Shown here: positions 35,919 to 37,687 of the stretch, one piece after another
Position numbering within the stretch: position 1 is the first letter of the stretch
Layout of the letters: each line of letters starts with the position of its first letter
NCBI GenBank assembly: GCA_025462645.1
Contig: JAOAPB010000001.1
Coordinates: forward strand, 1-64,000
Direction: 5' to 3'
Origin: Edaphobacter sp.
GTDB taxonomy: Bacteria; Acidobacteriota; Terriglobia; Terriglobales; Acidobacteriaceae
DNA: 64,000 nt
Translations under genes and position numbers: made by a program
Notes under the pieces: generated by a model
Databases searched by the model: none
The model's input: the letters and a program-made list of their open reading frames with translations, nothing else
Told to the model about the DNA's origin: nothing

Positions 35919-36266
35919 TTAACCCACACAAGACTCGTCCACCCTACGGCCTCTATCTCCTCAAAAAAGAGCTATCATGTGACGCCGCTGTGACGATCGA
36001 TAAGATCGCACAACGCATCGAAACACGCTCTATTTTCGCCCTTTCTGCGCCCAAAGTAGAACAAATCTGCCCACTCCAACGCCATTAGAATGCAAGCTGT
36101 TGCATATTGCGGAGAGGATGCGTTACTTCAGTAATTCTCGATGTTTAATATTGCACTATATATCTCATTCTATTGGACTTATCCTTACTCACATCCTATT
36201 GTTGTTTTATCTGATCTGTCCAGAGAATTATTAAAAAGTAAATCCCACTTTCGAGGTAGTTCAATC

Positions 36267-36437
36267 ATGAAAACCATCATCCGCGCCTTCGTCCTCGTCC
36301 TCGCCATCACCGGCGCAGCAGCCTCCACCCAGATCGCCTCCGCCTCCGCTCAGACCAAGGTCACGGTTGCCAAGACCAGCGCCATGCCCGTTCCCATGTG
36401 CGCTCCCGATGATCCCAATGCCTGCGGCTTCCGCTAG
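36267..36437 (+). CDS. small secreted peptide, copy 1 (56 aa)
   Basis: MKTIIRAFVLVLAITGAAASTQIASASAQTKVTVAKTSAMPVPMCAPDDPNACGFR; in-frame ATG inside ORF 36141..36437. Confidence 0.75.
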   Translation: MKTIIRAFVLVLAITGAAASTQIASASAQTKVTVAKTSAMPVPMCAPDDPNACGFR

Positions 36438-36516
36438 ACCCAAAGATTCGCATTCCCTGACATCTCAAAAAACTCGCTGAATTCAATCTAAGTACAAGAA
36501 TACAAAGGCCAATAAC

Positions 36517-36687
36517 ATGAAAAACATTATCCGCACTTTCGTCGTCGTCCTCGCCCTCACCGGTGCAGCAGCTTCCACCCAGATCGCCTCCGCCTCTGCC
36601 CAGACCAAGGTCACCGTTGCCAAGACCAGTGCCATGCCCGTTCCCATGTGCGCTCCCGATGATCCCAATGCCTGCGGCTTCCGCTAG
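36517..36687 (+). CDS. small secreted peptide, copy 2 (56 aa), absent from ORF track
   Basis: MKNIIRTFVVVLALTGAAASTQIASASAQTKVTVAKTSAMPVPMCAPDDPNACGFR. Confidence 0.75.
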   Translation: MKNIIRTFVVVLALTGAAASTQIASASAQTKVTVAKTSAMPVPMCAPDDPNACGFR

Positions 36688-36784
36688 ATCATCAATCTGC
36701 AAATGAATGTCAAAGTAATTGAGATATTTATTGTATCGGTCCCAAAGTTGAGCTACGCTTAAGGTAGTCATTTGGGGGCAGTTC

Positions 36785-37687
36785 ATGTCTCAGAGCCTGT
36801 TCGTAGGATTGTTATCGTATCTTGAGCCACTTTTGTGCGCCTTAGTTTTGGTGTCTTTGGTGCGCTCTGGAGCTGCACGTAAGTTCGTCTTTCTAACTTC
36901 ACTATTGAGCCTGAAGCTCATCTCCGGATTAGCTTGCTTGTTTCTTATCGACCTGTCCTCACGAGGGATTGAGAGACATCTTGCATACCAGATGTACTTC
37001 TACGTCTACTGGCTCTCCTATGCTGTGGAATCTATTCTTTCGCTTTTAGTTATCTACAGCATCTTCAAGCTTGCGATGGAACCCCTCAAGGGATTGCAGA
37101 CCCTAGGTATGCTGGTCTTCCGCTGGGTGGCTGCTATCTCTATTGCCGTCGCCCTTGGAGTAGCATTCACTCCACACCTTTCTGGCTTGAAATTTATGGT
37201 GGCAATGGTCACCCAGCTACAACAGACTTCGAGCATTCTTACGCTCTGCCTTTTGCTGTTTGTCTCCTTCGCTATCCGGCCGATGGGTCTAAGCTATCGC
37301 AGCCGCATCTTCGGCATCAGCTTTGGCCTTGGCCTTATGGCAACCTTCGATTTGGTTAAAACTGCATGGATGTCTCATAGCGCGCAGGTGTACTCCAGTT
37401 TCAATATCATCAATGGCGTTGTCATGTGTGTAGCTCTTTGTATCTGGTCGGCTTACTTCACTTTCCCCGAGCCGAAGCGTCGCCTGATTGTGCTCCCCAC
37501 GACCTCACCGTTCCTGCGCTGGAATCAGATCTCCCTCGCCCTTGGCGACGATCCTGGTTATGTCGCGGTCGGCGGCATTCCACCGGAGCTCTTTGCCCCA
37601 GCCGAACTTGAGGTTATGCGACGTGCCTCTGCCAAGATGCCTGTTAGCATCGATTCTCCAGCTGCTCTACGCTCCATCTCCGCATAA
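36785..37687 (+). CDS. hypothetical multi-pass membrane protein
   Basis: Multiple hydrophobic segments across ~220 aa, soluble C-terminus. Confidence 0.75.
   Translation: MSQSLFVGLLSYLEPLLCALVLVSLVRSGAARKFVFLTSLLSLKLISGLACLFLIDLSSRGIERHLAYQMYFYVYWLSYAVESILSLLVIYSIFKLAMEPLKGLQTLGMLVFRWVAAISIAVALGVAFTPHLSGLKFMVAMVTQLQQTSSILTLCLLLFVSFAIRPMGLSYRSRIFGISFGLGLMATFDLVKTAWMSHSAQVYSSFNIINGVVMCVALCIWSAYFTFPEPKRRLIVLPTTSPFLRWNQISLALGDDPGYVAVGGIPPELFAPAELEVMRRASAKMPVSIDSPAALRSISA

Follow-up and report, generated by a model that had tools for sequence, protein, structure and literature searches.

Based on comparison with related genomes, the region from position 36122 to 37687 of the window (viz. the whole stretch of 64,000 nucleotides of Edaphobacter sp. 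DNA that was analysed) represents a conserved operon-like cassette, which consists of a promoter region, a tandem array of genes for predicted exported peptides, and a gene for a predicted seven-helix inner-membrane protein. The peptide family, its linkage to the membrane protein, the selection acting on the peptide core and the promoter palindrome are all apparent from this comparison of sequences. The explanation that we favour, with a probability of about 0.42, is that the peptides act as a ligand or regulator on the seven-helix protein, which would then function as a membrane sensor.

The two peptide genes are located on the + strand at positions 36267..36437 and 36517..36687 and each of them encodes a protein of 56 aa. 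The first-pass annotation of this DNA, which was made from the sequence alone, had described these two ORFs and the 79 nt gap between them, and had indicated that all four amino-acid differences between the copies lie in the signal peptide and that the predicted mature part is identical. A codon comparison bears out this description, as the 4 non-synonymous differences (viz. T3N, A7T, L10V and I14L) are all within the signal peptide (codons 1-28), the 7 synonymous differences are in codons 4, 16, 19, 27, 28, 33 and 38, and between the CAG codon and the stop the copies differ by precisely 2 synonymous and 0 amino-acid changes. The predicted mature peptide (QTKVTVAKTSAMPVPMCAPDDPNACGFR, with the C-terminal ending ...CAPDDPNACGFR) begins at a cleavage site that we infer from the ASA-Q motif (cut before Q) and not from a predictor, and it contains the Cys pair C-x7-C noted earlier. 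The upstream region is also AT-rich as described, the G+C content of the 133 nt upstream being 32% in comparison to 58% for the window. Homologues in many genera, purifying selection on the core and linkage to the next gene indicate that this peptide pair is more than a chance occurrence.

When 151 Acidobacteriaceae genomes were searched, homologues of the peptide were found in many genera of this family, in agreement with the earlier expectation that relatives should carry it. The number of peptide copies per locus varied from 1 to 6, with 27 loci containing 1 copy, 5 loci 2, 10 loci 3, 4 loci 4, 3 loci 5 and one locus 6 copies. In the alignment of the peptide family, M1, K2, A19, P43, C45, P47 and C53 are invariant, and the invariant core P-x-C-x-P...C, with G usually next, is situated after a variable linker. 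The peptide endings are lineage-specific (e.g. GFR, GLGR, GITRGR and GMGTR), and members of the family exhibit a basic N-terminus, a hydrophobic stretch and small residues at -3/-1, which are heuristic criteria for Sec export. These results lend support to the earlier view of an exported-type peptide, present in tandem copies, with a conserved C-terminal core. Close homologues of the peptide/membrane-protein pair were found only in the family of the window, except for one weaker match on a short contig from another family of the same class.

The first-pass annotation had further suggested recent duplication, with selection or gene conversion on the mature part, and had proposed dN/dS analysis between the copies. 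The window's own copy pair offers too few differences to settle this question alone, and the analysis was carried out on 67 peptides of the genus. For tandem copies within a genome, dN/dS was 0.30 in the signal, 0.28 in the linker and 0.06 in the core, the last value being indicative of strong purifying selection; between genomes, the dN/dS of the core was 0.16. The pS values for the same tandem copies were alike in the signal (0.24), linker (0.25) and core (0.24), and because of this equality conversion confined to the mature part was rejected. The sibling copy was the nearest relative of the linker plus core in 55 of 61 cases, and of the signal in 37 of 61. Recent duplication or gene conversion was an interpretation, and the comparison favours instead purifying selection on lineage-specific tandem arrays. 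If duplication occurred separately in different lineages and was followed by purifying selection, then the shared core is explained without a conversion limited to the mature part. Every genome appears to keep nearly one mature core in all of its copies, as expected if all of them must fit one partner.

The gene at 36785..37687, which had been put forward as a possible partner, is consistently associated with the peptides. In 19 of 20 peptide loci, a homologue of this membrane protein is the next gene on the same strand immediately downstream, whereas the other neighbours differ, viz. infC in some members of the genus and, in other genera, divergent gyrB or RNase R. In the reverse test, an exported-peptide ORF was defined by an ATG or GTG start, Lys/Arg as the second residue, a hydrophobic stretch, the absence of acidic residues from the first 15 positions and a stop 20-260 nt upstream of the gene. 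Such ORFs were present upstream of 62 of 78 membrane-protein homologues versus 0 of 142 other genes; the control set comprised 160 genes, 18 of which are themselves membrane-protein homologues, and all 15 matches in this set belonged to such homologues. In the close group, some of the homologues without such an ORF are explained by a masked stretch (L137), a contig end (L015) or starts outside the strict rule (L067 and L021). A recognisable upstream peptide is absent in the close group only for L093, L094 and L119, and among the membrane-protein homologues overall also for L118, L108, L109, L095, L111 and L098; these homologues count against the ligand/sensor reading. The homologue from genome G017 (L118) also contains an in-frame stop codon, possibly reflecting decay after loss of the peptide. 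The upstream translations of L108, L109, L095 and L111, in which no peptide ORF was recognised, resemble one another in several frames, a likeness which may come either from a regulatory element that they share or from an unusual peptide.

Divergent homologues, exhibiting about 19-28% identity to the membrane protein of the window, often carry other small exported peptides (e.g. ...DPMPLCRRGHCRPIGK, ...GTDCPKGLVCKP, ...LPVPSCDPTVTKNCPMPIKL and the Cys-free ...STAPPPTPHGLRK), which are often Pro-rich or contain two Cys, and the pairing persists for L113, L114, L122 and L124, whose peptides have no Cys pair. The peptides and the membrane proteins show strong co-divergence (r about 0.77), and in a mirror-tree test the periplasmic half of the protein was not singled out (partial r 0.26 against 0.21 for the inner half), so that co-divergence did not separate the ligand/sensor reading from those of a subunit, a bacteriocin or an Agr-like pair. 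When the neighbours in 20-kb regions were clustered and partly annotated, the membrane-protein gene alone proved to be conserved on the downstream side. No conserved nearby gene for a cytoplasmic partner was present, which also counts against the ligand/sensor reading.

The membrane protein is 300 aa long and its gene is on the + strand. An AlphaFold2 model based on 73 homologues (pLDDT 85.6, pTM 0.78, with the tail less certain) predicts helices at residues 2-27, 35-60, 64-97, 102-127, 134-167, 174-196 and 200-226, followed by a cytoplasmic C-terminal tail (residues 227-300) with the motif LPTTSPFLRWNQISLALG. The Lys+Arg content of the inner loops (3.3/1.6/2.5) compared with that of the outer loops (1.0/0.6/0.4) follows the positive-inside pattern, and the predicted topology is seven helices with the N-terminus outside and the C-terminus inside. 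Sequence conservation is higher in the cytoplasmic half than in the periplasmic half (0.488 against 0.331, p 1.4e-10). A conserved inner half and a variable outer half are what one would expect if the ligands vary and the output is common; however, the inner-half conservation, taken by itself, is also compatible with a transporter or scaffold. The residues that are invariant in the close group (viz. the start Met, then Gly, Trp, Tyr, Phe, Asn and Ser) are not of catalytic types; no invariant His, Cys, Asp or Glu was found among 18 or 73 homologues, nor any invariant charged or catalytic residue in the homologue alignments. The protein has no output domain, which is a further point against the ligand/sensor reading. 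Of the 63 genomes of the genus, 59 contain the gene; among the good genomes (completeness of 90% or more, contamination of 5% or less) it is present in 48 of 48, mostly in a single copy. The four named relatives found by a single-sequence query include Edaphobacter modestus and E. aggregans. Searches for relatives in Pfam, NCBIfam and PDB identified none (18 members were tested against Pfam and NCBIfam), the PDB sequence search gave spurious matches only, and both Foldseek against PDB (best E 0.015 and 0.026, none at E<=0.001, TM about 0.5 or less) and a viral fold library returned generic seven-helix matches.

The promoter region upstream of the first peptide gene contains at 36122..36135 (+ strand) a 14-bp palindrome, GTTAC-TTCA-GTAAT (consensus RTKAC-N4-GTMAY), which is found in nearly all of the close loci and is a probable regulator-binding site. 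Its half-sites change independently among loci, so that a DNA site is more probable than an RNA stem, and the interpretation as an RNA hairpin was rejected. The 5.96-Mb genome contains one occurrence of the sequence GTTACNTNRGTAA and one of its degenerate form RTKACNTYRGTMAY; since the sole occurrence is at this locus, no regulon shares the palindrome. The reversed control also has more matches in the genome (7 and 8) than the palindrome pattern itself (1), so that the latter may be avoided elsewhere. The palindrome is followed at 36173..36181 (+ strand) by a -35-like element (TTGGACTTA), which is TNGACTTA-like in most close loci, the distance from the start of the palindrome to the start of this element being 51-53 nt in most of them, and the combined pattern has one occurrence in the genome. 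The -10-like hexamer TATTGT (36197..36202, + strand), located 17 nt after TGGACT, was read from the upstream sequences, is TATACT in some distant genera, and was not reported by a sigma-70 consensus scan of the + strand. Most close loci likewise have a -10-like hexamer about 17 nt downstream of the -35-like element. In most loci of the genus there is also a conserved element TTGTCCAGMGAAA (36216-36227 in the window, CTGTCCAGAGAA), in the presumed transcript start region. The divergent cassettes lack the palindrome/promoter composite.

An RNA hairpin is predicted at 36740..36777 (+ strand) over the ribosome-binding site of the membrane-protein gene, with a fold energy of -18.8 kcal/mol (z -2.85). 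Across 38 loci the mean z is -3.08 and the Shine-Dalgarno segment is 80% paired compared to 56% in shuffles, whereas the peptide-gene start regions have a mean z of -0.52. The hairpin was judged by fold energies relative to shuffles, the sequence alignment being too poor for structure-guided covariation, and Rfam gave no match in the cassette region. The predicted structure suggests an excess of peptide over the membrane protein, or a conditional translation of the latter.

If the cassette functions as a ligand and its sensor, then the peptides would be exported through Sec and cut by signal peptidase near the ASA-Q motif, after which a disulfide formed in the periplasm would give a small Pro-rich loop (C-APDDPNA-C). 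They would then bind, as ligand or regulator, to the variable periplasmic face of the adjoining seven-helix protein, whose conserved inner loops and tail may convey its state to a common partner in the cytoplasm. The several open-start peptide genes would supply an excess of ligand, and the hairpin over the ribosome-binding site would keep the membrane protein scarce or conditional. Cleavage, the disulfide, binding, signalling and the partner are steps that we infer.

The main rival explanation, which we consider rather unlikely, is that the seven-helix protein is a transporter, channel or membrane scaffold, with the peptide as its small periplasmic subunit, assembly factor or inhibitor, and that no intercellular message is involved. 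The strict gene pairing, the similar co-divergence with both halves of the protein, the lack of a linked kinase or regulator and the core-gene status are all consistent with it. However, the presence of 1-6 peptide genes with the same core, together with a hairpin limiting only the membrane protein, implies a peptide excess that is odd for a stoichiometric subunit, and the lack of an invariant charged or catalytic residue also argues against it. A bacteriocin-like peptide with a membrane immunity protein fits less well and has a low probability. The two-gene layout and the two-Cys exported peptide are similar to those of bacteriocins with polytopic immunity proteins, and the peptides diversify together with the membrane protein. 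However, the cassette is a core gene set without the patchy accessory distribution of bacteriocins, no plasmid match was found for it, the core is strictly conserved within a genome, and immunity proteins are rarely seven-helix proteins of 300 aa; because the partner gene is present in all of the good genomes of the genus, the bacteriocin-like role raised in the first-pass annotation is unlikely. A similarly low probability applies to an abundant structural or metal-binding envelope peptide, with the membrane-protein gene merely co-transcribed, for although tandem copies could serve dosage and the core contains Cys, Asp and Pro, the pairing persists with peptides lacking the Cys pair and holds across different genomic neighbourhoods. 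The least probable explanation, and one that again fits less well than the main rival, is an AgrD/AgrB-like pair in which the membrane protein matures or exports the peptide, since despite the adjoining multi-pass membrane protein and a possible cyclic product, the peptides have ordinary Sec-type signals and the protein has seven helices and not the AgrB fold, no family match and, as noted above, no invariant His, Cys, Asp or Glu.

In its functional kind, the cassette resembles peptide signalling, and its parts are new. Similar to the Agr/Com quorum sensing systems of Gram-positive bacteria, it combines a small exported and possibly looped peptide with an adjoining gene for a polytopic membrane protein, and its lineage-specific variants are common to all copies of one genome. 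However, it differs from them in its seven-helix partner without a kinase domain, Sec-type signal, 1-6 copies with the same core, and occurrence in a Gram-negative phylum. No relation to AgrB, AgrC or ComD was detected in Pfam or NCBIfam, no AgrB-like peptidase with catalytic His and Cys was indicated by the 18 members compared with Pfam/NCBIfam or by the 18 or 73 homologues, and no receptor histidine kinase with a response regulator is conserved in the 20-kb regions, where the neighbours were clustered and partly annotated. With GPCRs and rhodopsins the predicted protein shares seven helices, the N-out/C-in orientation and a variable outer and conserved inner face. GPCR homology was not supported, as neither Foldseek nor the PDB sequence search gave a significant match; because GPCRs dominate the seven-helix entries of PDB, the top Foldseek matches are uninformative. 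No family of Pfam, NCBIfam or PHROGs includes either protein. The peptide does resemble DUF6520 (PF20130), a short protein with an N-terminal hydrophobic segment, over residues 2-53; however, this match is below the gathering cut-off (17.9 against 25.4 bits, E 0.0041), is seen in only 5 of 24 members, and is probably due to the signal peptide.

Few bacteria are as common in soil as the Acidobacteriota, and a literature search covering Acidobacteria peptide signalling, DUF6520 and bacterial seven-helix peptide receptors yielded nothing relevant and no described peptide signalling system for this phylum. A two-part core module in which the peptide is probably in excess over its seven-helix partner offers a directly testable entry to the sensing of neighbours, or of their own envelope, in Acidobacteriota. 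We know of no bacterial description of a stand-alone seven-helix peptide sensor, and such a sensor, if true, would be a receptor design new to bacteria. It is a tentative and somewhat doubtful proposition that the cassette represents an unrecognised signalling class, characterised by disulfide-looped peptides in tandem arrays, stand-alone kinase-less seven-helix receptors, a peptide dialect for each lineage, a promoter palindrome that occurs once per genome, and control of receptor translation by RNA.

Two other loci in the same genome contain related sequences. On contig 58 (L052:16853-17755, - strand) there is an orphan peptide pair without a membrane protein or palindrome, of which one copy (..IPTCAPDDANACGIAVIRQ) is intact and the other is a peptide tail that forms an in-frame fusion with a response-regulator gene; this pair is probably a relic, or else contamination, the assembly being 5.3% contaminated. 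On contig 18 (L056), a distant paralogue of the membrane protein has its own exported-type peptide (MKKSIRTLVLSSVVVLSAAPMFANPMGTNPHPQASSSLSFGDCLNIFLSVTGY, with one Cys and a GTG start) 45 nt upstream of the located start. Several relatives of the L056 type likewise carry their own upstream peptide, in which Cys is absent and PHP..SLSLGDY is conserved.
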